Below the pieces are notes generated by a model. That model saw only the letters and a list, made by a program, of their open reading frames with translations, had not been told where the DNA came from and did no database searches. This document shows, piece after piece, positions 37,977 to 53,384 of a stretch of DNA of 64,000 nt (within the stretch, counting starts at the first letter, position 1; each line of letters begins with the position of its first letter). Made by a program: the position numbers and the translations under genes. The DNA is taken from the NCBI RefSeq assembly GCF_035920365.1, contig NZ_CP109150.1:5828001-5892000 (forward strand), read 5' to 3'. The DNA is from Micromonospora sp. NBC_01740 (GTDB lineage: Bacteria; Actinomycetota; Actinomycetes; Mycobacteriales; Micromonosporaceae).

Positions 37977-40900
37977 TCACTTCACGAACCGGTACGCGTT
38001 GACGATGGTCTGGTCCAGCCGGTTGCCGTGCGAGTCGACCAGGGTGGCGCGCAGCGACACCGTCCGGGTTCCCTTCGGCGCGTGCACCACCGCGCGGTAG
38101 CCGCCGTCGCCCGCCGGCACCACCGGGGCCTTGCGCCAGGTGCGGCCCCCGTCGACGGAGACCCGCACGGCCAGCTGCCGGACCCGACCCACGCGGGCCT
38201 CCGGCTGGGACATCACCGACACCGGCAGCAGGGTCACCGGCGCCCAGCGGGCGACGTTGTGGTCGTCGACCGTCGGCGCGTACCGGACGACCCACAGCGG
38301 GAAGGACTCGCCGGCCTCGCCGGCGGTGTCCGACCGGAACGTCCACGTCGCGTCCACCCGCGTCGACAGGGGGGAGTACGACGGTCGGCTGGTCCGCTTC
38401 TCCACGCGGAACGTCGCGGGCCCCGGCGGCACCTCGGCCTCCAGGTTCCCGGCGCCGGACGCGGCCACCAGGCGGCCGTCGCGGTACATCCGGGTCGTCG
38501 CCGCGTCGGTGAGGGAACCGGCCCGATGCCCGTCCTGGTCGGAGTACATGGGGATGCCGAACCAGACGGTGTCGCCGCGCCGGCCGGCGTGACCGGCGAA
38601 GTCGAACATCGGCCCGAGCACCGACGCGTTCCACCGGTCGGTATACCGCTGCCCGGCCTGGTACGACTGGTTCGCCTGGCCGAAAGCCGTGATCTCGACC
38701 GGTAGCCCGTCCCCGCCCGGGACGTTCTCGCCGAAGGCGGCGCTCCACAGGGTGGCGCCGCCCTCCAGCAGGTGCGTCGTGCGCGCCGGCAGCCTGAACG
38801 GCAGCAGCGGAGTCAGCGTGCCGATGACGCCGGGCGCGTTGGGGAACAGGGCCTTGGTCGCCGCGCGGCCGGTCACCTGGGCGACCAGCCGGCTGTCCAC
38901 CGTCGCCAGGTCCCGATCGGCCACCTTCCGGTCGAAGCCGGTGAAGAAGCCGCCCGGGCGGGTGTCGAGCAGCCCGTAGGTGTAGGGGGTGTCGCGGAAG
39001 TCGCCAGCCGGGCCGGGCACCGCCCAGGTGGAGTGGAGGTAACCGGTCATCCGCTCGGCGGGCAGGTCGGGGCCGAGCTGCCCGGAGCGCAGACCCTCGA
39101 AGCCGTCGAGGGCCAGGGCGAGGCCGAACCCGGTGCCGTCCTCGGCGCGCCGGTTGAAGCCGAGGTCGACCATGGCGGTCCGCGCGTCCGGGCGGGGCAC
39201 GGTGGTGCGTACCGGGGCGGTCCGTCGGGCGTCCATGGTCACCGTGGCGTCGGCGTCGAGGGCCAACTTCGGCTGGACCAGGCGGTGCCAGGTCGAATCG
39301 GTGTCGCCGAAGTCGACCACGTCGCCGACGAGGACGTAGCTGCCCTTCGGCAGCCGGGTGGTGGCGGTGCCGTCCTCGCCGTACAGCAACGCCCTCAGCT
39401 CGCCGGTGAGGTCCAGCACCATCGTCTCGGCCCGGCCGGTGGGCCGCCCGTCCGGCCCGAGGTGCCGGACGGTGAGCGTGTGGCTCTCGACCTCCTTCTC
39501 CACCTCGACGCGCGAGCGCACGGCCAGGTCGGGCGCGCCCGCCGGGGTGGCGGTGACGGTGCCCGTGTAGCGGCCGTCGGGCCCGTCGTGGCGGGTGTCG
39601 GCGGTGACGGTGACGCCGGCCGACCCGCCCGCCGGCACGGTCACCGTGGTCGCGTCGAGCCACAGCGCCCCGGCGGGGGCGGGCGTGCCGTCGGGGCCGG
39701 TCAGCGCGACGTCGAGCCGCAGCTCGACGGGCCGGTCGCCGTGGTTGTGCCAGGTGAGCGTCCGCTGTTGCGGGCGGTCGTCGGCGTGCGGCCACTGCTG
39801 CACCCCGAAGGCGAGCGAGGCCGTGGCCGGGAGCACGTTCCGCCGGGCCAGCGCCGGCGCGTCGAGCGCACCGTCCACCGCGGAGGCGGCGAGGGCGGCG
39901 CGGAGCCGGTCCACGGACCAGTCCGGGTGACGCTGGGCGAGCAGTGCCGCGCCCGTCACCGTGCCGGCCGGCAGCCCGGCCGCACGCCCGTCGGGCCTGT
40001 CGTGGGTGGCGATCGCTCCGGCAGCCCCGTCCGCAGCGGGGGCCAGCACGAGGGCCCCGGTGCGGTCGCCGATCCGTTCGATCGCCCGGCCGAGCGGGCC
40101 GGTGCCGAGCTGCTCCGCGCCACCGACGCCGAGGTCGACGACGTCGGCCCGGCCGGCGGCCCACTCCAGGCCGGCCAGGATCGCCGACTCCGGGCACCGG
40201 CCGTCGTCGTCACATACCTTGCCGTCGAGCAGCGTCGCGCCGGGCACGGCGGCGGCGGTGCGGGTGCCGTGTCCGTGCCGGTCACCGGTGCTCGCGCCGG
40301 CGAAGACCTGCCGGCGCGCCACCCGGGCGGCCGGCCTGGCCCGCTCGGCGTCGACGCCGGTGCTCAGCACGGCCACGGTCGGCGCGGCGCCACCCGCCGA
40401 CAGAGCCGGGGGCGGGTCGGTGGGCGGCGCCGGCACGGGCGCCGGGGTCAACGGCCTGTCCAGCCAGATCCTCTCGATGCCTGCCCGCTGCTCGCGAATC
40501 GCCGACCAGGCCGAGGCGGCGTCCGTCTTGACCATGGTCACCGCGCTCATCCCGGCTACGGCGAACCGGCCGGTCGTGCGCAGCCCCGGCCCGGTCAGAC
40601 CGGCCGCGGGATCGGCGCCGCGTCGCGACACGATCAGCGGCAGCCCGGGGCTGCGGGCGTCGTCGTAGCCGGCCCGGACCAGCGCCGTGACGTCGAACAG
40701 GCGCCGGTCCAGCAGCCCGGCGGCGACCAGCGGGCGGGCGTCCTCCGGGAGGACGGTGCGGTGCCCGCCGGCACGGTGGCTGGTGAAACGGGTGCCGGCG
40801 CGGCCCGGGGCGGCGGTCACGGTGACCCGCGCGCCGTCCGGGGAGACGGTGACCCGGTCGCCGGTGATCAGGGTGACCCGATGGTCGGACTGGCTGGCGG

Positions 40901-41051
40901 GCGCCGGCGCGGGGTCCGCGTCTCCGCCCGCGACGGCGGGGGTCTGCTGCCCGGTGATCACCAGTACTGCCGCCAGGGCCGCCACGCCCCCGACCGCGAT
41001 GGCCCTTCGGCCGCGCCCTCCGCTACCGGTTGCCGCACGTTTCTCGCCCAC
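37977..41051 (-). CDS. Secreted subtilase-like (S8) protein with lost catalytic residues
   Basis: The GTG at 41051, nine bases after GGAGGGG, gives 1024 aa. There is a signal peptide (about 1-42), an S8 propeptide start (HRVTLITGDRVTVSPDG, 57-73), a shrunken subtilase domain (about 224-395) and a long beta-rich C-terminal part. The usual VAVLDTGVD reads VAVLSTGVD, with Ser230 replacing the catalytic Asp. The His motif survives as HGHGTRTA (His261). The oxyanion Asn region reads LAPAADGAAG, and the GTSMA(A/T)PHVAG loop carrying the nucleophile Ser is missing before ALLAQRHPDWS. All of this is in one continuous frame. It should not be a protease. Binding or scaffolding is inferred. Confidence 0.8.
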   Translation of the reverse strand: MGEKRAATGSGGRGRRAIAVGGVAALAAVLVITGQQTPAVAGGDADPAPAPASQSDHRVTLITGDRVTVSPDGARVTVTAAPGRAGTRFTSHRAGGHRTVLPEDARPLVAAGLLDRRLFDVTALVRAGYDDARSPGLPLIVSRRGADPAAGLTGPGLRTTGRFAVAGMSAVTMVKTDAASAWSAIREQRAGIERIWLDRPLTPAPVPAPPTDPPPALSAGGAAPTVAVLSTGVDAERARPAARVARRQVFAGASTGDRHGHGTRTAAAVPGATLLDGKVCDDDGRCPESAILAGLEWAAGRADVVDLGVGGAEQLGTGPLGRAIERIGDRTGALVLAPAADGAAGAIATHDRPDGRAAGLPAGTVTGAALLAQRHPDWSVDRLRAALAASAVDGALDAPALARRNVLPATASLAFGVQQWPHADDRPQQRTLTWHNHGDRPVELRLDVALTGPDGTPAPAGALWLDATTVTVPAGGSAGVTVTADTRHDGPDGRYTGTVTATPAGAPDLAVRSRVEVEKEVESHTLTVRHLGPDGRPTGRAETMVLDLTGELRALLYGEDGTATTRLPKGSYVLVGDVVDFGDTDSTWHRLVQPKLALDADATVTMDARRTAPVRTTVPRPDARTAMVDLGFNRRAEDGTGFGLALALDGFEGLRSGQLGPDLPAERMTGYLHSTWAVPGPAGDFRDTPYTYGLLDTRPGGFFTGFDRKVADRDLATVDSRLVAQVTGRAATKALFPNAPGVIGTLTPLLPFRLPARTTHLLEGGATLWSAAFGENVPGGDGLPVEITAFGQANQSYQAGQRYTDRWNASVLGPMFDFAGHAGRRGDTVWFGIPMYSDQDGHRAGSLTDAATTRMYRDGRLVAASGAGNLEAEVPPGPATFRVEKRTSRPSYSPLSTRVDATWTFRSDTAGEAGESFPLWVVRYAPTVDDHNVARWAPVTLLPVSVMSQPEARVGRVRQLAVRVSVDGGRTWRKAPVVPAGDGGYRAVVHAPKGTRTVSLRATLVDSHGNRLDQTIVNAYRFVK

Positions 41052-41331
41052 CCTGTGTCCCCTCCGCCGCTTCGGTCCGCCGCACGTGCGGCGGTCATCG
41101 CTGGTGTCTGGTCATCAGGGATCGTCGTCCGGCCCCTCTGGGCCCCGCATCTCCCGTCGTGCGCTCATCCCGTCGCCGGGCACGGGGTTGCGCACGGTGG
41201 AAGGTGCGCCGGGTCCGGCCGAGCAGCACGATCCGACAGTGGAGCGGACGGACGCGCCGGGGCGCCCGGTTCTGCCGAGGCAAGGCTCAACAGATCCTTT
41301 TCGGACAGTGCGGGTGCGTGAGGAGCGGACG

Positions 41332-42681
41332 ATGACATCAGTGCGAGGGGACGCGCCGGGGGCGACATCCGCCACCGGCGAGCGGGCCCGACCGAGGATC
41401 TTCTTCCCCGAGCTGGAGGGCATGCGCGGGGTCGCCGCCGTGATGGTCATGCTGACCCACATCGCGCTGACCACGGGCATGATCGCCTCCGACATGTACG
41501 GCGCGGCCGGCAACCCGGTCGCCGGACCGATCTTCAACACCATGGACGTCAGCCTGCCGATCTTCTTCGTCCTCTCCGGGCTGGTGCTCTACCGGCCGTT
41601 CGCGCTGGCCACCCTCACCGACCGGCCGCCGATGGCGCTGAAGCCGTACTTCTGGCGGCGGGCCCTGCGGATCCTGCCGGCGTACTGGTTGCTGGCCGTG
41701 ACGGCGCTGCTCGTGCTCAATGCCGACGCCGTCACCGGGCTGTGGCACGTGCTGCGCCCGCTGCTCGTGCTGCACGTCTACCAGCCGAACGCGATGCCCA
41801 CGGGCATGGAGCAGACGTGGAGCCTCGCGACCGAGGTCGCGTTCTACGTCACCCTGCCGCTGCTGGCCTGGGCGTTGCGCCGCTGGGCGGTACGCGCCGC
41901 CGACCCGGGGACCCGCGCGAGGCGGCTGCTGGTGCCACTGGGCGCCCTGGTGCTGACCGGCGCCGGCTTCGCCGCGTACCACCACCTGCCCTCGATGGGC
42001 CCCTTCCCGATGCAGCACCTCTGGCCGACCGAGTACATGGGCTACCTGGCGGTCGGCATGATCCTGGCGACCCTCTCCGCCGTCGCCGAGGTGGCGCCCG
42101 AGCGGACGCCGGCCCCGTACCGGTTCCTCATCCGGCACCCGGGCGCAGCGTGGATCGGCGCGGCGCTGGCGTACGCGACGGCCTGCTCCCCCCTGGGCGG
42201 CCCGAACGACATGAACTACCCGCCGCTGGGCTCGGCGATGGTCGACCACGCCCTCTACCTGGCCATCTCCCTGCTGCTGGTGGCGCCGCTGACCCTGCCG
42301 GCGGGCCGTCCCGGCTACATGCGGGCGGCCCTGTCCAACCCCGTGCTGCGCTTCCTCGGCCGGATCTCCTACGGGGTCTTCCTCTGGCACGTCTTCTACC
42401 TGTGGGTCTACTACGGAACGACAGGCACGCCGCTGGGCACCGGCAACTTCTGGCTCGTCACCGCGGCGGTGGCCGGTGCCAGCGTGGTGACGGCGACGCT
42501 GAGCTTCTACCTGTTGGAGCGCCCGGCGATGGGGCTGCGGCCGTGGTTGGGCCGGGCGCCCGTGGACCCGGGGGCCCAGGCGCCGAGCACGGTCCGCGAG
42601 CAACTCCCGACCGGCCGCGAGGCGGCGCAGTGGGAGTCGCGCAGCACCGAGCCGGCCGCCCCCGCAGTAGCGGCCGAGTGA
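41332..42681 (+). CDS. Acyltransferase-3 family membrane protein
   Basis: This 449-aa protein has about ten membrane helices and the acyltransferase-3 pattern: FPELEGMRGVAAVMVMLTH near residue 26 (catalytic His at its end), FFVLSGLVLYRPF near 82, YFWRRALRILPAYWLLA near 105, and EQTWSLATEVAFYVTLPLL near 163. Members O-acylate cell-surface or secreted glycans and antibiotic sugars. AGGAGCGGACG precedes the ATG. Acylation of the cluster's sugar is possible, and cell-envelope modification is the alternative. Confidence 0.85.
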   Translation: MTSVRGDAPGATSATGERARPRIFFPELEGMRGVAAVMVMLTHIALTTGMIASDMYGAAGNPVAGPIFNTMDVSLPIFFVLSGLVLYRPFALATLTDRPPMALKPYFWRRALRILPAYWLLAVTALLVLNADAVTGLWHVLRPLLVLHVYQPNAMPTGMEQTWSLATEVAFYVTLPLLAWALRRWAVRAADPGTRARRLLVPLGALVLTGAGFAAYHHLPSMGPFPMQHLWPTEYMGYLAVGMILATLSAVAEVAPERTPAPYRFLIRHPGAAWIGAALAYATACSPLGGPNDMNYPPLGSAMVDHALYLAISLLLVAPLTLPAGRPGYMRAALSNPVLRFLGRISYGVFLWHVFYLWVYYGTTGTPLGTGNFWLVTAAVAGASVVTATLSFYLLERPAMGLRPWLGRAPVDPGAQAPSTVREQLPTGREAAQWESRSTEPAAPAVAAE

Positions 42682-44437: not shown

Positions 44438-44965
44438 TCAGCGGGACGACGCCGACCTCGCCGCGGCGACCGCCTCCTCGTAGCGCGGGTGCTCGCCGAC
44501 CTCGCGCACGTACTCGACGTGCACGACGCGGTCCTCGGCGTCGACCACGAAGACCGCCCGGGCGAGCAGCCGGAACTCCGCGATCACCACGCCGTAGGCG
44601 AGCCCGAAGGACAGGTCGCGGTGGTCCGAGGCCGTCCGGACCCCCTCGATGCCGGCGTTGCCGCACCACCTGGCCTGCGCGAAGGGCAGGTCCACGGAGA
44701 TGGTCAGCACGCTCACCCCCGGCAGGGCGGCGGCCTCCTCGTTGAACCGCCGCGTCTGCTGGTCGCAGACGCCGGTGTCGAGCGACGGCACCACGGACAG
44801 GATCCGCACCGTACCGGCCGACGAGGCCAGGTCGACCGGCGAGAAGTCGTTGGCCAGCGCGGTGAAGGCCGGCGCGGGATCGCCCACACGCACCTCCGGC
44901 CCGAGCAGCGTGACCGGGCGGCCCCGGAACGTCGTGACGCCGGCACGTTCCAACGCGACTGTCAT
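44438..44965 (-). CDS. tpx: Thiol peroxidase (Tpx-type atypical 2-Cys peroxiredoxin)
   Basis: This 175-aa protein has the peroxidatic Cys67 in PSLDTGVCDQQTRRFNEEA and the resolving Cys101 in FAQARWCGNAGIEG. The 34-residue spacing matches the Cys61/Cys95 spacing of E. coli Tpx. It reduces hydroperoxides with electrons from thioredoxin. The ATG at 44965 has AGGAGAACC upstream. It lies 179 bp downstream of the thiosugar-like operon on the same strand, so co-transcription is possible. A housekeeping peroxidase is the default reading, but a link to thiol protection in that operon is worth noting. Confidence 0.9.
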   Translation of the reverse strand: MTVALERAGVTTFRGRPVTLLGPEVRVGDPAPAFTALANDFSPVDLASSAGTVRILSVVPSLDTGVCDQQTRRFNEEAAALPGVSVLTISVDLPFAQARWCGNAGIEGVRTASDHRDLSFGLAYGVVIAEFRLLARAVFVVDAEDRVVHVEYVREVGEHPRYEEAVAAARSASSR

Positions 44966-45144: not shown

Positions 45145-46380
45145 TCAGCGCACCGCGTCGGCGTGCTCGGGGGCGGTGGCCGACTCCTCGGCCGGCGGCC
45201 GGCGGCGCAGCATCGGCACCGGGATCAGCGAGACGACCCCGGCCGCGACCGACAGCACCACGTAGTTGGTGGTCGCCAGCACCACCCCGGCCACCACGCT
45301 GGCCACGGCCGAGGCGGCCCACACGAGGGCGTCCACCCGGCCCTGCACCGCCCGCCGCGCGGCCGGGGTCAGTGCCTGGGTGAGCAGGGCGCTACCGCCG
45401 ACGAAGGTGAGGTTCCAGCCCCAGCCGAGCAGGAAGAGCGAGACCACCAGGCGGGTGAGGCCGCTGCCGTGGGCCGCCGGCCACGACGCCACCACGACGG
45501 AGGTGACCAGCAGGCCGATGCCCATCAGGATCGCGGCCCGACCGCCGAAACGGTCCGACAGGTAGCCGGAGAGCGGCGCCAGCGCGAACATGCCGATCAT
45601 GTGGCCGCTGAGCACCACGCCCACCGCCGTGAGGCCGTGGTGGTTGCTGCTCATGTGCAGCGGCGTCATGGTCATCAGGGCGACCATGGCCAGCTGCCCG
45701 GCGATCATGGACACCAGCGCGACGGACACCACCGGGTGTCGCCACACCTGCGCCGGGGTCGGATCGTTGGCGCCCCGCCGGGCCGCCGTCCGCGACCGGG
45801 GCATGGCGGCGGAGGCAAGCACGCAGATGCCGGCCGCCAGCAGCGCCACGAGGAACGGCCCGGCCAGGTCCGGCAGACCCAGCCGGCTGGCCGCGGTGGC
45901 GCTCGGTTCCATCAGGTTGGGCCCGAAGACCGCCCCGACGGTGCCCGCCCAGACGATGACCCCGACGGCCAGCCCCTGCCGGCGGGGCGGGTACAGGTCC
46001 GCCGCGCAGTACCGCGACAGCTGCGCCCCGCCGTTGCCCACCCCGAGCAGCACCATGCCGAAGATCAGCAGCAACACCTGCCCGGAGGCCACCGCCGCGC
46101 CGGCCACCGCCGCGCCCACGATCGCGACCAGGTAGCCCAGCGACAGCGCGGAACGGGTGCCCCGACGCGCCATCAGCGCGGCCAGCCAGAGCGTGCCGGC
46201 GGCGGTACCCAGCACGCCGGCCGCGTTCGGCACGCCGCTCCAGAGCTCGGTCAGTTCCTCCGCGCCGATCAGCGTGGACGCCGTGCTGGCCCCCACCATG
46301 GAGGTGTTGGTGGCGGCCACCCCACCGAGCAGGGCCGCCATCGACCGTCGCCGGCCGGTGGTTTCCACGTCGACGCTCAT
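45145..46380 (-). CDS. MFS transporter at the end of the thiosugar-like operon
   Basis: This 411-aa protein has about 12 membrane helices, with MARRGTRSALSLGYL in the helix 2-3 loop, VLLGVGNGGAQLSRY near residue 117 and GYLSDRFGGRAAILMGIG near 275. The ATG overlaps the TreY stop (ATGA), so it is translated with the operon. As the last gene after ThiG-like, CysO-like, HAD, GlgA, MalQ and TreY, export of the operon product is the natural inference. Sugar uptake is the alternative. Confidence 0.88.
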   Translation of the reverse strand: MSVDVETTGRRRSMAALLGGVAATNTSMVGASTASTLIGAEELTELWSGVPNAAGVLGTAAGTLWLAALMARRGTRSALSLGYLVAIVGAAVAGAAVASGQVLLLIFGMVLLGVGNGGAQLSRYCAADLYPPRRQGLAVGVIVWAGTVGAVFGPNLMEPSATAASRLGLPDLAGPFLVALLAAGICVLASAAMPRSRTAARRGANDPTPAQVWRHPVVSVALVSMIAGQLAMVALMTMTPLHMSSNHHGLTAVGVVLSGHMIGMFALAPLSGYLSDRFGGRAAILMGIGLLVTSVVVASWPAAHGSGLTRLVVSLFLLGWGWNLTFVGGSALLTQALTPAARRAVQGRVDALVWAASAVASVVAGVVLATTNYVVLSVAAGVVSLIPVPMLRRRPPAEESATAPEHADAVR

Positions 46381-48698
46381 GATCCTCTTTTCTTGACGAG
46401 CAGTGCCACCGGCAGGCGGCCGAACAGGTCCTCGACGCGGGGCGCCGACGAACGGACCGGCGCGCCGGTGAACACGTCCACCCAGCCGTCGGCGTCACCG
46501 GGCAGGGGCACCACGGTGTCGGCCCAGCCGCCCCGTTCGGCGAGCCCCACCGGCAGCCGGGTGGCCAGCGCCACGACGCCGTCGTCACCGCCGCGCGAGA
46601 AGCCGATGAGGTGCTCCGCCGCGCCGCCCTCCGCACGGACCGGGCGGTAACCGCGGAACAGCCGCGGACTGTCCCGGCGCAGCCGCAGCACCCGGGAGGT
46701 GACCAGCAGCTTGGCCGCCCCCGTGTCGTCGACCCGCGGCGTCCGTCCCGCGTCGATCTCCGCCAGCAGTCGCCGGCGGGCCGCGAAGTCGACCGGGCGG
46801 CGGTTGTCCGGATCGACAAGCGAGTAGTCCCACAGCTCGGTGCCCTGGTAGACGTCGGGCACCCCGGGACCGGCGAGCTGCAGCAGCTTCTGGCCCAACG
46901 AGTTCGACCAGCCGGGCGCGGCGATCCGGTCGACGAAGGCACGGACCTCCGCCGTGAGGGACCCGTCGGCGAGCACCCGGGCGGGCCAGCTCGTGACGCC
47001 GTCCTCGTAGTCGAGGTCGGGATCGTGCCAGTTCGTGCGCACCCGCGTCTCGCGGGCGACCTTGAGCAGGTAGGCGGAGAGCCGCTCGGGGCCGATCGGC
47101 CAGGCGCCGAGCAGGGTCTGCCACGCCAGCGGTTCGAGCAGGGGATCGCCCAACGGCTGCCGGGCGGACCAACGGCGGAAGCGCTCGGCGTACGCCTCCG
47201 GCAGCTCGCTGAGCACCGCCAGGCGGGCCCGTACGTCCTCCGAGCGCTTGGTGTCGTGGGTGGACAGCGTGGTCATGGTGGCGGGCCAGCCGGCCTCCCG
47301 GGCCGCGTTCGCCGCGTGCAGCTCACCCGGCGACACCCCGAACCGGCCCGGGTCGACGCCCACCTCGTTGACCGCGACCAGGCTGTTGTGCCGGTAGATC
47401 GCCGTGTCCTCGACGCCCTTGGCCATCACCGGGCCGGTCGCCTGCTGCACCCGCACCGCGAGCGGGCCGGTCGGCCGGGCGACCATCTCGTCCCGGACGG
47501 CGGTGAGGATCCCCCGCAGCGCCGGCCGACGCCGGGCGGCCCGCTCGACCGCCTCGTCCAGCGCCCAGCGGTGCTGCGGGAGATAGGACCGGTAGACGGG
47601 AAACTCCACCAGCAGGGCCCGGACGGCGTCCGCGCGCTCGGCCGCCGGGCAGCGGGGCAGCAGCGCCGCGACGAGCGCCTCCACCCGTCGCGCCTCGGCG
47701 ACCAGCATCGTCGCGACGACCTGCTCGCGCGCCTCGCGCACGACGTCGGCCAGCGCGGTGTCGGTCAGGCCGGCCGCCTCGGTCAGCCGCTGCCGGCCCG
47801 CCGGGGCCACGAAGACGCCCGAGATCTCGGCCAGCGCGTCGTAGCCCGTGGTGCCGTCCACCGGCCAGCCCGCCGGCAGCTCCTCGCCGACGCCCAGCAC
47901 CTTCTCCACGACGATCCACGCTGCGGGCGCCGCGGCCCGCAGCCGTCGCAGGTATCCCGAGGGGTCCGCCAGGCCGTCCGGATGGTCGACGCGCAGCCCG
48001 GTGACCTGCCCCTCCCGGACCCAGCGCAGCGTCTCGGCGTGCAGCGCCCCGAACACCTCCGGGTCCTCCGTGCGCAGGCAGGCCAGCGTGTCGATGTTGA
48101 AGAACCGGCGGTACGTCAGGTCGGCCGCCCCCCGGCGCCAGGACACCAGCCGGTAGTGCTGCCGGCCGTGCACCTGCGCCACCGTGCCGTGCCCGGTGCC
48201 GGGCGCCAGCGGGAACCGGTGCTCGTGGTAGACCAGCGAGTCGTCGGCGAGCTTCAGCTCCCCCTCGGCCGCCGCGCCGCCGTCGCCGTCGTCGCCCAGC
48301 ACCGGCAGCAACAGCGGCCCCGCCGACCAGTCGACGTCGAAGAACCGGGCGTAGCGGGACTCCGGCCCGTGCCGCAGCACGTCGGACCACCACGGGTTGG
48401 CCGCCGCGTCGGCGACGCCCATGTGGTTGCAGACCACGTCGACCACGAAGCCGAGCCCGGCCTCGGCGAGCCGGCGGGCGAGCGCGAGGCGCGCCCGCTC
48501 GCCGCCCCGGCCCGGGTCGGCGCGCGTGGGGTCGACCAGGTCGTAGCCGTGCGTCGAGCCCGGCGCCGCGGCGAGCAGCGGGGAGGCGTAGAGCGCGCCG
48601 ACACCGAGGTCGACCAGGTAGTCGGTCAGCACGACGGCGTCGGGGAGACCGAGGTGGGGGCCGAACTGGAGACGGTACGTGGAGGTCGGTGCCGCCAT
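46377..48698 (-). CDS. treY: Maltooligosyltrehalose synthase (GH13)
   Basis: This 773-aa protein begins TSTYRLQFGPHLGLPDAV. It has the GH13 regions VVDVVCNHMG near residue 90, GLRVDHPDGL (nucleophile Asp) near 236, VVEKVLGVGEELP (acid/base Glu) near 265, and LSTHDTKRSEDVRARL near 480. TreY turns the reducing-end alpha-1,4 bond of maltooligosaccharides into an alpha,alpha-1,1 bond. Trehalose release normally needs TreZ, which is not in this operon, and neither is GlgX. The start shares one base with the MalQ stop (TGATG). The missing TreZ and the sulfur genes upstream suggest a use other than trehalose supply. Confidence 0.92.
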   Translation of the reverse strand: MAAPTSTYRLQFGPHLGLPDAVVLTDYLVDLGVGALYASPLLAAAPGSTHGYDLVDPTRADPGRGGERARLALARRLAEAGLGFVVDVVCNHMGVADAAANPWWSDVLRHGPESRYARFFDVDWSAGPLLLPVLGDDGDGGAAAEGELKLADDSLVYHEHRFPLAPGTGHGTVAQVHGRQHYRLVSWRRGAADLTYRRFFNIDTLACLRTEDPEVFGALHAETLRWVREGQVTGLRVDHPDGLADPSGYLRRLRAAAPAAWIVVEKVLGVGEELPAGWPVDGTTGYDALAEISGVFVAPAGRQRLTEAAGLTDTALADVVREAREQVVATMLVAEARRVEALVAALLPRCPAAERADAVRALLVEFPVYRSYLPQHRWALDEAVERAARRRPALRGILTAVRDEMVARPTGPLAVRVQQATGPVMAKGVEDTAIYRHNSLVAVNEVGVDPGRFGVSPGELHAANAAREAGWPATMTTLSTHDTKRSEDVRARLAVLSELPEAYAERFRRWSARQPLGDPLLEPLAWQTLLGAWPIGPERLSAYLLKVARETRVRTNWHDPDLDYEDGVTSWPARVLADGSLTAEVRAFVDRIAAPGWSNSLGQKLLQLAGPGVPDVYQGTELWDYSLVDPDNRRPVDFAARRRLLAEIDAGRTPRVDDTGAAKLLVTSRVLRLRRDSPRLFRGYRPVRAEGGAAEHLIGFSRGGDDGVVALATRLPVGLAERGGWADTVVPLPGDADGWVDVFTGAPVRSSAPRVEDLFGRLPVALLVKKRGS

Positions 48699-50200
48699 CA
48701 GCCGGTGAACCCCCTGGCCCGTCGGGTGGACGCCCGCCGGTCCCGGCCGTACGTCTCGGTCAGCCGGCGCAGCCGGAACTCCAGGCCCGGGGTCAGCGCC
48801 TCCGCCCGGAACCGCCACCGCCAGCTCCCCTCGGCCTGCCCCGGGACGTTCATCCGGGCCGCCGGGCCCAGCTCCAGCACGTCCTGCAACGGCAGGACGG
48901 CGAGCTCGGCCACCGACGCGAAGACCGCCCGCGCCATCGACCGGCAGATGCCGTCCGGTACGCCCCCGAGGTAGCGCTCCACCCGCAGCCGCTGGTCGGC
49001 GCTCGACTCCTCCCACCAGCCCAGTGTGGTGTCGTTGTCGTGGGTTCCCGTGTAGGCCACGCAGTCGGTCGGGTAGTGGTGCGGCAGATGCTGGTTCTCG
49101 TCGCCGGCGAAGGCGAACTGGAGCAGCCGCATGCCGGGAATGCCGGCGTCGATGCGCAGCTGCTGCACCTCCGCCGAGGCGGGCCCCAGGTCCTCGGCCA
49201 GCATCACCACCTCGCCGAGTTCCTTGCGGACGGCCTGGAACAGCGACGGGCCCGGCCCGTCGCGCCAGCGCCCCGCACTCGCCGGCCGGCCCACCGGCAC
49301 GGCCCAGTAGCGCAGGAAGCCCCGGAAGTGGTCGAGCCGGATCATGTCGTACAGCTGGGTCATCCGGCGGATCCGGTCGACCCACCAGGCGTACTGGTCC
49401 TCCGCCATCAGCTCCCAGCGGTAGAGCGCGTTGCCCCAGACCTGGCCGTCGGCGCTGAACTCGTCGGGCGGGAACCCGGCCACGGCGGTCGGACGGCCCG
49501 CCGCGTCCAGCTGGAACAGCTCCGGCGCCGCCCACGTCTCGCAGCTGTCCGTGCCGGCGAACATGGCCACGTCGCCGATAAGCTCGATGCCGAGCCGGCG
49601 GGCATGGTCGCGGACGGCGGTGAAGTGCGAGGCGAACAGGTACTGCTCGAAACGGTAGTAGTCGAGGCGGTCCCGCTCGGTGTCGTCGAGCCGGGCCAGC
49701 GCGTCCGGGTCCCGCCGGGCCAGCGGCGCCGGCCAGCTCGTCCACGGCCCGCCGTACCGCTCCCGCAGGGTCATGTAGCGGGCGTAGTCGTCCAGCCACC
49801 ACGCCTGTTCCCGGGCGAACGCCTCGCTCTCGGCGGTCGGCGTGAAGGCGGCGTACGCCCGGGCCAGCAGGTCGGCCTTGACGGCGCCCGCCGCCGGGTA
49901 GTCCACGGTGTCCGGCGGCAGCGCCGGCACGTCCGCCAGGTCGGCGGCGGTGAGCAGACCCTCGTCGCGCAGCCGCTCGACGCTGACGTAGAGCGGGCTG
50001 CCGGCCAGCGTGGAGCTGGCCTGGTACGGGCAGCCGTCCGCGCCGACGGGGTTGAGCGGCAGCATCTGCCACACGCTCTGCTCGGCGGCCGCGAGGAAGT
50101 CCAGCCACTCGATCGCGGCCGGCCCGAACTCACCCACCCCGAACCGGCCCGGTAGTGAACTGGGATGCAGCAGGATCCCGCTACGTCGGTTGACCGGCAC
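48698..50200 (-). CDS. malQ: 4-alpha-glucanotransferase (amylomaltase, GH77)
   Basis: This 500-aa protein starts at a GTG, with RRSGILLHPSSLPGRFGVGE at the N-terminus, GDVAMFAGTDS near residue 214, MIRLDHFRGF (nucleophile Asp) near 293, VMLAEDLGP (acid/base Glu) near 340 and YTGTHDNDT near 391. It transfers maltodextrin segments onto glucose-like acceptors with a free reducing end. Its length equals the short bacterial amylomaltase form. The gene overlaps GlgA by 20 bp and TreY by one base. Acceptor promiscuity of amylomaltases would allow a modified glucose as acceptor (inference). Confidence 0.92.
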   Translation of the reverse strand: MPVNRRSGILLHPSSLPGRFGVGEFGPAAIEWLDFLAAAEQSVWQMLPLNPVGADGCPYQASSTLAGSPLYVSVERLRDEGLLTAADLADVPALPPDTVDYPAAGAVKADLLARAYAAFTPTAESEAFAREQAWWLDDYARYMTLRERYGGPWTSWPAPLARRDPDALARLDDTERDRLDYYRFEQYLFASHFTAVRDHARRLGIELIGDVAMFAGTDSCETWAAPELFQLDAAGRPTAVAGFPPDEFSADGQVWGNALYRWELMAEDQYAWWVDRIRRMTQLYDMIRLDHFRGFLRYWAVPVGRPASAGRWRDGPGPSLFQAVRKELGEVVMLAEDLGPASAEVQQLRIDAGIPGMRLLQFAFAGDENQHLPHHYPTDCVAYTGTHDNDTTLGWWEESSADQRLRVERYLGGVPDGICRSMARAVFASVAELAVLPLQDVLELGPAARMNVPGQAEGSWRWRFRAEALTPGLEFRLRRLTETYGRDRRASTRRARGFTG

Positions 50201-51590
50201 CCGAGTCGTCCTCCCGTCCTGTCCCGTGCGCCGGCGCGCGCACGTACAACTGCTCGTACCGCTCGGCGGCCTCGTCCCACGAGAACCGGGCCCGCATGCC
50301 GCGCTCCCGCAACCGCGCCCACGCCTGCCGGTCGGCCCAGCGCGCGACCACCTGCGCGATCAGGTCGACCAGGTCCGGCGCGCGGTAGCCGTCGAACGAG
50401 AAGCCGAGCCCCGTCGCGGCGACCGTCTCCGCCATGCCGCCGACCCGCCGCACCACGGGCACCGACCCGTAGCGCAGCGCGATCAGCGGCGCCAGCCCGC
50501 ACGGCTCGAACCGGGAGGGCGCCAGGAAGGCGTCCGAGCCGGCGTACGCCAGCCGGGCGATCGCCTCCCCGCTGTCCGGGTGGTAGGCGACGTGCGGGTA
50601 GTAGCGGGCGGCGCGGCGGAACGACCGCTCGTACTCGGCCCCGACGCCGACGACGACGAGTTGCAGGCCGAGGGCGGCGATCTCGTCGATGCCCTCCAGC
50701 AGCAGGTCGACGCCCTTCTGGTCGACCAACCGGCCGACGAAGGCGAACAGCGGCACCTCCGCATCCGTCGCCAGGCCGCTGCGCTGCTGGAGCGCGCGCT
50801 TCGCCACCGCCTTGCCCGCGAGGTCGTGCACGTCGAAGCGGGCCGGCAGGTGCGGGTCCGTGGCGGGGTCGAAGTCGTCGTAGTCGACCCCGTTGCGGAT
50901 CCCGTGGTAGTCCTCGCCCCGGGCCCGCAGCAACCCTTGCAGCCCGACCCCGTGCGCGGGGGCGAGGGTCTCGTCCCGGTAGCGGGCGCTGACGGTGGTG
51001 ACCGCGTCGGCATACCGGATGCCCTGGGCCAGCAGGTTGCCGGTGCCGTAGCGGGTCAGGTCCAGCTCGTCGGCCTTGTCGTGCGGGAACAACCCCTGGT
51101 AGGCGAGGTTGTGGATGGTCATCACGGTCCGCGGCGACGCGTCGAGGGCGCGCAGGTACGCCGGGACGTGCCCGACGTGCCAGTCGTTGCAGTGCACCGC
51201 GTCGGGCGGGCTCGCCGACCGCGCGGCCAACTCGGCGACCGCCCGGGAGAACAGCACGAAGGACGACAGGTGCTTCTCCACGTACCCCTCGGGCCGCTGC
51301 CAGTCGGGATGCTGCGGCGTCCGCAGGGTGAGGTACCGGACGCCGTCGTGGTCGCCCAGGTCGTCGACGGTGAACTCGGCGCGCGCCGAGCCCGCCGCGA
51401 CCGCCACCGTGCCGACCCGGCGGCCGTCCGGCAGCCCCGCGTAGCCGGGCAGGAACAGCCGTACGTCGTGCCCCCGGCCGGCCAGCGCCCGGGGCAGGGC
51501 CCGGGCGACATCCCCGAGACCGCCCACCTTGACCAGGGGCGCCACCTCGGAGGTGGCGAAGAAGACCCGCAGCGGGCGGCCGGCGCTCAC
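50181..51590 (-). CDS. glgA: Glycogen/starch synthase-type GT5 glycosyltransferase
   Basis: This 469-aa GT-B enzyme has the N-terminal donor loop EVAPLVKVGGLGDVARALPR near residue 15, where KVGGLGD replaces the usual KTGGLGD. The C-terminal PSRFEPCGLAPLIALRYGSVPVVR is near 370. The GTG start overlaps the HAD stop (GTGA). It should elongate alpha-1,4-glucan from ADP-glucose. No branching enzyme, GlgC or GlgP lies in the operon, so this is not a standard glycogen cluster. It probably makes a linear maltooligosaccharide for MalQ and TreY. Confidence 0.9.
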   Translation of the reverse strand: MSAGRPLRVFFATSEVAPLVKVGGLGDVARALPRALAGRGHDVRLFLPGYAGLPDGRRVGTVAVAAGSARAEFTVDDLGDHDGVRYLTLRTPQHPDWQRPEGYVEKHLSSFVLFSRAVAELAARSASPPDAVHCNDWHVGHVPAYLRALDASPRTVMTIHNLAYQGLFPHDKADELDLTRYGTGNLLAQGIRYADAVTTVSARYRDETLAPAHGVGLQGLLRARGEDYHGIRNGVDYDDFDPATDPHLPARFDVHDLAGKAVAKRALQQRSGLATDAEVPLFAFVGRLVDQKGVDLLLEGIDEIAALGLQLVVVGVGAEYERSFRRAARYYPHVAYHPDSGEAIARLAYAGSDAFLAPSRFEPCGLAPLIALRYGSVPVVRRVGGMAETVAATGLGFSFDGYRAPDLVDLIAQVVARWADRQAWARLRERGMRARFSWDEAAERYEQLYVRAPAHGTGREDDSGAGQPT

Positions 51591-52321
51591 GCCCGCGTCC
51601 CCGACAGCGTGGCCGGCCCCGCGACCGTGGACAGGCCCGCGATCGGGGCGCCGGCCAGGCGCAGCTCGACCGCGCCGGCGGCGCGGGCGACGCTCAGCGC
51701 GGCGAGGTCCGGCGCGGTCCAGGTCGCCCCGGCGGCCCGCAGGGCCGGCGCGTCGCCGACGCCGACCGTCACCGCCCCGGCGGACGAGGCCGCGCGGACG
51801 CCGCTGGGGGCGTCCTCGACGACCAGGCAGCCCGCCGGGGCCAGCCCGAGCCGGCGCGCCGCGAGCAGGTAGCAGTCCGGCGCCGGCTTGCCGCGCGCCG
51901 TCTCGCCCCAGGTGACCATGGCGTCGAAGGCCGCGGCGACGCCCAGGTGCGCCACCACCCGCCGGGCCCGGCGCGCGGAGGCGCCGGTGACCAGCGCCAG
52001 CCGGACACCGGCGCCGCCGAGCGTCGCCAGGATCTCCCGGGCACCCGGCACCTCGACGAACGCGAGGTCGGTCTCGGCGACCCGCACCCGGCGCAGGATC
52101 TCCTCCCGCGTGTCGGCGTCGAGGTCGCCGAAGAGCGCCGAGACCGAGTGTTCCGGGGAGCAGCCGAGCACGTCGTCGCGGATCGCCGACGCGGACAGCG
52201 CCCGATCGTGCTCGGCGGCCAGGCCCCGCCAGAGCGACAGGATGGCCTCGGTCGAGTCGATCAGGACGCCGTCCAGGTCGAACAGCACACCGGCGAAGAC
52301 AGGGACCGGTCCGGACGCCAT
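51587..52321 (-). CDS. HAD-superfamily phosphatase (subfamily IA, beta-phosphoglucomutase-like)
   Basis: This 244-aa protein has motif I LFDLDGVLIDS with Asp15 and Asp17, motif II VTGAS near residue 105, and motif III-IV GKPAPDCYLLAARRLG followed by VVEDAPSG. These are intact, so it should be active on a sugar phosphate. Its position between the sulfur-carrier gene and GlgA (TGATG and GTGA overlaps) suggests it dephosphorylates, or less likely isomerises, a hexose phosphate made by the ThiG-like enzyme. In the BE-7585A thiosugar pathway a phosphatase also acts after thiolation. Confidence 0.85.
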   Translation of the reverse strand: MASGPVPVFAGVLFDLDGVLIDSTEAILSLWRGLAAEHDRALSASAIRDDVLGCSPEHSVSALFGDLDADTREEILRRVRVAETDLAFVEVPGAREILATLGGAGVRLALVTGASARRARRVVAHLGVAAAFDAMVTWGETARGKPAPDCYLLAARRLGLAPAGCLVVEDAPSGVRAASSAGAVTVGVGDAPALRAAGATWTAPDLAALSVARAAGAVELRLAGAPIAGLSTVAGPATLSGTRA

Positions 52322-52596
52322 CAGCCCCCCGCCACGGCGGGCAGGATGGTCAGCGAGTCGCCGTCGCGCAGGCGGGAGTCGAGCATCCCGCTGGTGCGCA
52401 CGTCGACGTCGTTGATGTAGAGGTTGACGAAGCGGCGCAGCTGCCCGTCCTCCCCCATCACGCGGCTGCCCAGCCCCGGGTGCCGGGCCTCGAGGTCGGC
52501 CAGCACCTCGGCGACGGTCGAGCCGTCCGCGGTCACGTACTTGCTGCCACTGGTGTAGTTGCGGAACACGGTCGGGATGCACACCTCGACGGCCAT
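52321..52596 (-). CDS. CysO-like ubiquitin-fold sulfur carrier protein
   Basis: This 91-aa protein starts VEVCIPTVFRNYTSGSKYV and ends TILPAVAGG. The C-terminal Gly-Gly can be adenylated and converted to a thiocarboxylate. The length and the FVNLYINDVDVR stretch match mycobacterial CysO more closely than ThiS (about 66 aa). No activating E1-like enzyme (MoeZ/ThiF) and no CysM or Mec+ protease is in the window, so activation must come from elsewhere. The ribosome site GAGG lies before the ATG. It is 14 bp after the ThiG-like gene and its stop overlaps the HAD start. Confidence 0.88.
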   Translation of the reverse strand: MAVEVCIPTVFRNYTSGSKYVTADGSTVAEVLADLEARHPGLGSRVMGEDGQLRRFVNLYINDVDVRTSGMLDSRLRDGDSLTILPAVAGG

Positions 52597-52610
52597 GGTC
52601 GGCTCCTCGG

Positions 52611-53384
52611 TCAGTAGGGGATCTCGTCGCCGGGCATGGCGCCGGCCAGGTACGACAGCCGACCGGCCTCCACGGCGTGCTTCATCGCCTGCGCCATCAG
52701 CATCGGCTCCCGGGCCTTCACCAGGGCGGTGTTGACCAGTACCGCCGCCGCCCCGAGCTCCATCGCCAGGGTGGCGTGCCGGGCGCTGCCCAGCCCGCCC
52801 TCGACGACCACCGGAATGTCGACCGTGTCGATGATCTGGCGGATCGGGCCGGGGTCGGGGATGCCGTGGCCGGAGGCCACGGGGGCGCTCATCACGCGCA
52901 GCGCCGAGCAGCCGAGCGCCGCCAACTCCTTGGCGGTCGCGAGGTCGGGCAGGATGAACGGCATGACCTCCCAGCCCTGCTCGCGCAGCTGGGCGGCGAC
53001 CTCGACGGTGGCCCGGTTGTCCGGCTCGTTGGTCCGGCCGCGGACGTCCAGCTTGAACACGGTGATGCCGTAGGCGTCGTGCAGGATGTTGACGGTCTTC
53101 CACGCGCTCTCGGCCGACCGGGCGAACGAGGTGGTGCCGATCCACAGGTACTGCTCGATGGGAATCTCGTCGGCCAGATCGGACAGCAGGAGACTCGAAC
53201 GGTTGTTGTCGGGGTCCACGGTGGTGATGAAGACCTGCGAACCGGTCGCCTCGAGCACCTGGCGGATCACCGACGGCGACGTGTACTGCTCGATACCGAC
53301 GAGCAGGCGCGAGGTCAGCTCCGTGTCGCCGAGCCTGACCCATGCGTCCCGGAGGCCAGCGACCTCCATCGAATCCACGGACAT
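52611..53384 (-). CDS. ThiG-like (beta/alpha)8 enzyme, candidate BexX-type thiosugar synthase
   Basis: The ATG at 53384 (AGAAAGGG five bases upstream) gives 257 aa and is preferred to an in-frame GTG at 53390. ThiG landmarks are TSRLLVGIEQY, the Schiff-base Lys111 in VFKLDVRG, GWEVMPFILPDLATAKELAALG, APVASGHGI, VVVEGGLGSARHATLAMELGA, VLVNTAL and AVEAGRLSYLAG. It differs from thiamin ThiG at several active-site stretches: ThiG DAGIG is EGGLG, and the MPGASPIGSG region reads VMSAPVASG. Thiamin genes are absent. ThiG takes sulfur from a carrier thiocarboxylate, and BexX uses the same chemistry on glucose-6-phosphate. Here it heads a carrier-HAD-glucan operon. Confidence 0.85.
   Translation of the reverse strand: MSVDSMEVAGLRDAWVRLGDTELTSRLLVGIEQYTSPSVIRQVLEATGSQVFITTVDPDNNRSSLLLSDLADEIPIEQYLWIGTTSFARSAESAWKTVNILHDAYGITVFKLDVRGRTNEPDNRATVEVAAQLREQGWEVMPFILPDLATAKELAALGCSALRVMSAPVASGHGIPDPGPIRQIIDTVDIPVVVEGGLGSARHATLAMELGAAAVLVNTALVKAREPMLMAQAMKHAVEAGRLSYLAGAMPGDEIPY

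Follow-up and report, generated by a model that had tools for sequence, protein, structure and literature searches.

A conserved actinomycete operon joins a BexX-like enzyme to trehalose-building genes and may direct synthesis of a thiotrehalose

Introduction

Few biosynthetic routes to thiosugars have been described, and in the excerpts of the literature available to us (all papers cited here are cited from such excerpts) BexX, from the pathway to one antibiotic, is the 2-thiosugar example. That antibiotic is BE-7585A of Amycolatopsis orientalis, whose BexG2 is a trehalose-type glycosyltransferase; BexG2 was not named among the literature matches listed. According to the excerpted account, no ThiS paralog specific to the pathway is encoded in the BE-7585A cluster, which borrows its sulfur carriers (PMC6225789), and MoeZ activates the carriers for BexX (PMC5321127).

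A second group of described systems concerns the assembly of trehalose from glucan. In Pseudomonas aeruginosa an operon of glgA, treY, treZ, glgX and malQ leads from the linear glucan of GlgA to trehalose, and MalQ can take glucose as an acceptor (PMC11046441). Trestatin and acarviostatin are glucan-like oligosaccharides, and trestatin B carries an alpha,alpha-1,1 terminal bond (PMC12498427). Trehalose analogues have been tested as trehalase inhibitors in the thiotrehalose literature, which includes PMC10054017. Here we describe an operon of a soil actinomycete, Micromonospora sp. NBC_01740, that probably makes and exports a sulfur-containing trehalose, since it joins a relative of BexX with trehalose-building enzymes.

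Results

A conserved seven-gene operon

The window analysed is a 64,000-nucleotide stretch of the Micromonospora genome, which consists of one contig of 7.3 Mb. Between 45145 and 53384 on the minus strand lie seven genes in the order ThiG-like, CysO-like, HAD, GlgA, MalQ, TreY and MFS:

52611..53384, minus strand: putative BexX-like (ThiG-fold) 2-thiosugar synthase; 257 aa; 4n6e_A at 314 bits; placed by tree; K111 corresponds to BexX 110
52321..52596, minus strand: dedicated CysO-like sulfur carrier; 91 aa; AVAGG end; 4n6e_B at 99.7 bits
51587..52321, minus strand: HAD of the beta-phosphoglucomutase type, proposed 2-thioglucose-6-phosphate phosphatase; 244 aa; subfamily adjoining BexX-like genes
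50181..51590, minus strand: GlgA, ADP-glucose-type glycogen/starch synthase; 469 aa; TIGR02095 at 422 bits; KVGGL and SRFEP motifs
48698..50200, minus strand: MalQ, 4-alpha-glucanotransferase (GH77); 500 aa; Pfam GH77 at 518 bits, TIGR00217 at 314 bits; motifs present
46377..48698, minus strand: TreY, maltooligosyltrehalose synthase; 773 aa from the ATG at 48698; TIGR02401 at 805 bits; 6lcv/6lcu
45145..46380, minus strand: MFS transporter, proposed exporter; 411 aa; Pfam MFS_1 at 90 bits; end of the block in all four loci

The TreY query used for searches began at 48701, one codon before the ATG. In Pfam the first two proteins match ThiG (190 bits) and ThiS (54 bits). A 14-bp gap separates the ThiG-like and CysO-like genes, and the remaining junctions are overlaps, of 1 bp between CysO and HAD, 4 bp between HAD and GlgA, 20 bp between GlgA and MalQ, 1 bp between MalQ and TreY and 4 bp between TreY and MFS. 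Families and junction positions bear out the first-pass annotation on the seven genes, their common strand, the overlaps of 1-20 bp and the 14-bp gap. It had also reported TreZ, GlgX, GlgC, branching enzyme and thiamin genes as absent; none of these occurs among the 20 window ORFs scanned, but TreZ does follow the MFS gene in the Catellatospora loci described below. Elsewhere in the genome a second TreY gene is followed by TreZ, and a thiamin-type ThiG and a ThiS also lie outside the operon. The window has no Rfam match and no tRNA. The region 37977-42681 holds two candidate ORFs on opposite strands, of which the minus-strand one, of 1024 aa and with no Pfam match, extends over the beginning of the plus-strand one, for an acyltransferase-3 (40687-42681).

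The same seven genes are present, in the same order and orientation, in Micromonospora sp. C31 (L005), the nearest named relative, where they are 91-98% identical, and in two Catellatospora genomes (L013 and L014), Catellatospora sp. KI3 (G016) and Catellatospora tritici (G136), where they are 60-72% identical. Frames overlap or abut from ThiG through TreY in all four loci, with a 50-bp gap between TreY and MFS in Catellatospora. Because all seven genes keep their order and orientation in the three further loci, the block is a real unit and not a chance association. Co-occurrence in other actinomycetes, a check that the first-pass annotation had proposed, is therefore seen, and the arrangement is not confined to this strain.

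Three flanking genes, encoding a nitroreductase, an M20 peptidase and a thiol peroxidase, were considered as further members and rejected, as the two 20-kb Catellatospora loci yielded no match to any of the three. At the C31 locus the nitroreductase and thiol peroxidase genes are present and the M20 peptidase gene was not found. The thiol peroxidase gene (44438-44965) shares the strand of the operon and lies downstream of it. Upstream DNA aligned poorly between Micromonospora and Catellatospora, and no common element was drawn from it.

The BexX-like gene is rare. At an E-value of 1e-70 or better five of the 300 family genomes searched have it, the window genome among them, and three of these five carry the seven-gene block. 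At 1e-60 it was found in one of 396 genomes sampled from the phylum (the window genome itself), three of 397 from the order, four of 343 from the genus of G322, taken as Streptomyces, and six of 297 from the family of G889; the family, phylum, order and genus samples overlap. Indirect evidence points to one 61,803-base contig of Streptomyces sp. NPDC059740 that carries relatives of the BexX-like, GlgA and MFS genes, and to one contig of Solwaraspora sp. WMMD937 with relatives of the BexX-like and MFS genes.

The sulfur half of the operon

Among solved structures the ThiG-like protein scores best against 4n6e_A, the "putative thiosugar synthase" BexX, at 314 bits, compared with 140 bits for the best chain of a thiamin ThiG. 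We built a tree of 76 rows, 22 of them from the loci, the window and BexX and 54 taken from the 120 matches listed, of 1412. Three rows, taken as thiamin ThiG, come from the window genome and from two Helicobacteraceae copies. The 73 BexX-family rows separate from these three with support of 100/100, at a split where long branches meet. The window protein and the other operon copies fall in a 14-row clade (100/99), and BexX itself sits in a different subclade alongside L022. At least 72 of the 73 BexX-family rows share each of seven residues, E32, T55, D57, W81, D113, R115 and R163, that differ in all three ThiG rows. Lysine 111, aligned with BexX residue 110, which we take to be the active-site, sugar-binding lysine, is present in all 76 rows.

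The phylogeny against ThiG and BexX that had been suggested earlier thus places the operon protein with BexX, apart from thiamin ThiG, and judged from its sequence it is a BexX-type enzyme. A thiamin role was rejected on the bit scores, the tree split and the BexX-type residues. Formation of 2-thioglucose-6-phosphate by this putative synthase is well supported by kinship, and the earlier proposal that it thiolates a hexose phosphate gains support from the BexX grouping and the family residues. Six BexX-family proteins of 333-354 aa (P0054, P0096, P0098, P0103, P0106 and P0107) carry both ThiG and ThiS domains and so constitute enzyme-carrier fusions.

The operon carrier is nearest to 4n6e_B (99.7 bits), the carrier chain of the BexX crystal entry, and also matches 3dwg_C. 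It ends in AVAGG, with a bare Gly-Gly, in all four operon copies. The other CysO of the genome (L032:1489-1842), which adjoins a JAB-domain gene and a PALP-family gene, has in contrast a 26-residue Ala-rich tail beyond the Gly-Gly, so that the operon carrier, with its bare end, should need no trimming. One ThiF-family gene in the genome scores above the family cut-off, and its rhodanese domain gives it the MoeZ layout.

A similar association was found for the HAD protein. Where a HAD of the operon type adjoins a BexX-like gene, it scores 158-252 bits (G016, G136, G1026, G1408 and G1106), compared with no more than 87 bits for other HADs among the matches listed in the 14 genomes searched. This contrast indicates that the subfamily accompanies BexX-like genes, even in the absence of glucan genes, as at L046, L047 and L050. 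AlnB, a distant PDB match of the operon HAD, is a precedent for a HAD phosphatase acting after sugar-phosphate coupling (PMC5321127). Dephosphorylation by the putative phosphatase is well supported by kinship, and the phosphate-removing role first suggested for it is strengthened by its membership of a subfamily found near BexX-like genes.

The glucan half of the operon

All of the motifs that were searched for in GlgA, MalQ and TreY are intact, with meanings that we assume for each family. Among the 31 relatives searched, the operon GlgA was matched in two, one of them being the window genome; the 18 other members of its genus gave no match. In a tree made with 59 of the 120 proteins among the matches listed, the four operon copies fall in an 18-row clade (100/99). 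The best solved relatives of TreY are 6lcv and 6lcu. In a 13-row tree, from which L063 was left out, the four operon TreYs form one clade (100/99), with the TreY of G1408 next and the eight others outside. Eighteen positions differ in all four operon copies from at least eight of the nine other TreYs, and none of the 18 could be tied to the acceptor site. Residue 91, in the DxVxNH motif, is Cys in all four operon TreYs and Pro in all nine others.

The blocks of the window and of C31 contain no TreZ gene. In both Catellatospora loci TreZ follows the MFS gene on the same strand (695 and 718 bits, cut-off 539), at distances of 86 and 26 bp in our own gene calls, so that GlgA, MalQ, TreY and TreZ are all in one operon there. 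No TreY besides that of the operon was found in these two genomes, where the operon enzyme may therefore make ordinary trehalose.

Trehalose-forming enzymes beside other BexX-like genes

We examined 19 BexX-like loci, a non-random choice that includes three of the four close Streptomyces plasmid matches, H3 being left out. In 10 of them a trehalose-forming enzyme belongs to the same gene group. Four have TreY (the window, L005, L013 and L014) and six a divergent OtsA-like protein (L017, L018, L019, L022, L044 and L045). The second class counts as fewer than six, because L017 and L019 share an identical BexX-like protein accession and the genes of L018 and L045 are near-identical. Three of the OtsA-like proteins were scored, at 182-199 bits against a cut-off of 565, and for this reason look like a specialised branch. 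Neither CysO nor the operon-type HAD was seen in the OtsA-type three-gene group, with no match at the loci searched and none annotated at L017-L019. On the linear Streptomyces plasmids L017 and L018 the BexX-like, MFS and OtsA-like genes lie near type II polyketide genes, and these loci may be BE-7585A-like clusters.

The other 9 of the 19 loci have no recognised trehalose-forming enzyme, and at L048 and L049 no partner of the BexX-like gene was recognised. At L047:9829-12893, in a genome taken as Streptomyces, BexX-like, HAD, CysO-like and MFS genes are found in the absence of glucan genes. Judged by its gene content, L047 is possibly a minimal 2-thioglucose maker.

The transporter was also considered as an argument for a common product. 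In a tree of 45 rows the OtsA-type MFS proteins group by themselves, apart from the relatives of the window MFS, and those of L047 and L050 are distant; the OtsA-type proteins are 34-37% identical to the window MFS, and many other MFS proteins are nearer to it, at about 50%. Since the TreY-type and OtsA-type transporters are not closest kin, the tree gives no support to a shared product.

Discussion

A possible pathway and its alternatives

We lean towards the view that the operon serves to synthesise and export 2-thiotrehalose, or else a maltooligosyl precursor of this sugar. Built on the observed gene set, its conservation, the family placement, the intact motifs and the dedicated carrier, the route would begin with a MoeZ-type enzyme, encoded elsewhere in the genome, loading sulfur onto the dedicated CysO-like carrier. 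The BexX-like enzyme and the carrier thiocarboxylate would then convert glucose-6-phosphate to 2-thioglucose-6-phosphate, from which the HAD would strip the phosphate to give 2-thioglucose. Close kinship is the basis for these three steps of sulfur loading, thiolation and dephosphorylation. GlgA would polymerise NDP-glucose into a linear alpha-1,4-glucan, which MalQ would transfer onto 2-thioglucose, leaving the thiosugar as the reducing end. TreY could convert the last bond to alpha,alpha-1,1, TreZ (in the operon in Catellatospora, elsewhere in the genome here) would free 2-thiotrehalose, and the MFS protein would export it. For these later steps, from glucan to export, we infer the roles from gene order and family chemistry, and the pathway presumes that MalQ and TreY would accept 2-thioglucose.

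The first-pass annotation had proposed a thiosugar or thio-oligosaccharide pathway. Its thiosugar core stands, and an open-ended thio-oligosaccharide now appears less likely than 2-thiotrehalose or a maltooligosyl precursor. 2-Thiotrehalose is the likelier product because TreZ is present in the Catellatospora operons and glgA-malQ-treY-treZ is a published trehalose set (PMC11046441). Against this reading of the product stand a window operon that has no TreZ, the nine of 19 loci with no recognised trehalose enzyme, and L047, which has no glucan gene. The distant kinship of the TreY-type and OtsA-type transporters, the sole TreY of each Catellatospora genome and the 50-bp gap before the MFS gene there also weigh against it.

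The strongest rival, which we regard as unlikely but serious, is that the transcript carries two uncoupled modules, with free 2-thioglucose exported by the MFS protein and ordinary trehalose made by GlgA-MalQ-TreY (and TreZ), for instance as a protectant that the cell requires simultaneously. L047, with its ThiG-HAD-CysO-MFS group and no glucan genes, is consistent with such a division, as are the plain trehalose operon of like make-up in P. aeruginosa (PMC11046441) and the sole TreY of the two Catellatospora genomes. The gene layout argues the other way. The glucan genes lie between HAD and MFS in all four loci, in frames that overlap or abut from ThiG to TreY; the window genome already has a TreY-TreZ pair elsewhere; and BexX-like genes also adjoin a different trehalose-forming enzyme, the OtsA-like protein.

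Less probable again is a longer final product, a maltooligosyl-2-thiotrehalose left untrimmed by TreZ, which could for example be an amylase or trehalase inhibitor with a trestatin-like end. The operons of the window and C31 would suit it in having no TreZ, trestatin B does end in an alpha,alpha-1,1 bond (PMC12498427), and a synthetic 5-thiotrehalose is reported to resist enzymatic breakdown (PMC10054017). However, a TreZ gene comes after the operon at each Catellatospora locus, and the TreZ of the window genome could act in trans. A reading of the ThiG-like enzyme as a further thiazole synthase for thiamin is very improbable: Pfam and public names do call the family ThiG or thiazole synthase, but the protein has 36% identity to the other ThiG of the genome, which itself adjoins ThiS, and its grouping and residues are of the BexX type.

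Comparison with described systems

The 2-thiotrehalose reading draws on BE-7585A for its sulfur chemistry. Among solved structures BexX is the closest to the enzyme and its crystal entry also supplies the chain nearest to the carrier, and the lysine and family residues are the same. Unlike the BE-7585A cluster, in which the excerpted account reports no pathway-specific ThiS paralog (PMC6225789), the present operon contains its carrier gene. The seven genes also hold no polyketide genes and add the glucan/TreY set, and the enzyme belongs to another subclade than BexX; none of the 20 window ORFs scanned is a type II polyketide gene beside the BexX-like gene.

With the P. aeruginosa glgA-malQ-treY-treZ-glgX operon (PMC11046441) the locus has in common the grouping of GlgA, MalQ and TreY, to which the Catellatospora loci add TreZ. 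It differs in that the block is joined to BexX-like, CysO, HAD and MFS genes, that no glgX was found and that the window has no TreZ. On Streptomyces plasmids and in other actinomycetes, the OtsA-type loci likewise bring BexX-like and MFS genes together with one for a trehalose-forming enzyme, but there an OtsA-like protein replaces TreY, CysO and HAD were not seen, and the MFS comes from another branch. Trestatin and acarviostatin resemble the proposed product as glucan-like oligosaccharides, trestatin B also in its terminal bond (PMC12498427), but contain an aminocyclitol, for which there is no gene among the seven, and sulfur chemistry would be expected here.

The first-pass annotation knew of no described system with this gene set. 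This holds for the whole set as far as the literature was searched, with no paper found for ThiG together with malto-oligosyltrehalose synthase or for ThiG, CysO and trehalose together, and nothing on the sugar found in the excerpt of PMC7284819; the two halves, on the other hand, are both known.

We consider it nearly as likely as not that actinomycetes make free 2-thiotrehalose, not as a polyketide ornament, by two independently assembled routes, one through the BexX-like enzyme and the OtsA-like protein, a divergent trehalose-6-phosphate synthase, and the other through the BexX-like enzyme and, with it, a glucan route, through GlgA-MalQ-TreY(-TreZ) with its own carrier. If the operon does act as proposed, it would encode a complete thiosugar pathway, sulfur carrier included, that is compact enough for reconstitution in vitro and puts the TreY route to a new use. 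The product would be an undescribed exported thiol disaccharide, and a secreted thiol trehalose could act as a redox thiol, imitate trehalose or be built into an antibiotic. The wider BexX-like family, with its varied gene contexts and ThiS-domain fusions, points to further candidate thiosugar clusters.

Two other settings of BexX-like genes were observed among the loci. At L015:6772-10211 and L016:5898-10110 the genes, about 53% identical, lie near NB-ARC/TPR proteins in surroundings unlike a metabolic operon, and L016 also has a trypsin-like protein with an EAD8 domain. At L023:8754-10475 and L051:10481-12229 the BexX-like gene adjoins one for a protein of 574-583 aa with no Pfam match.
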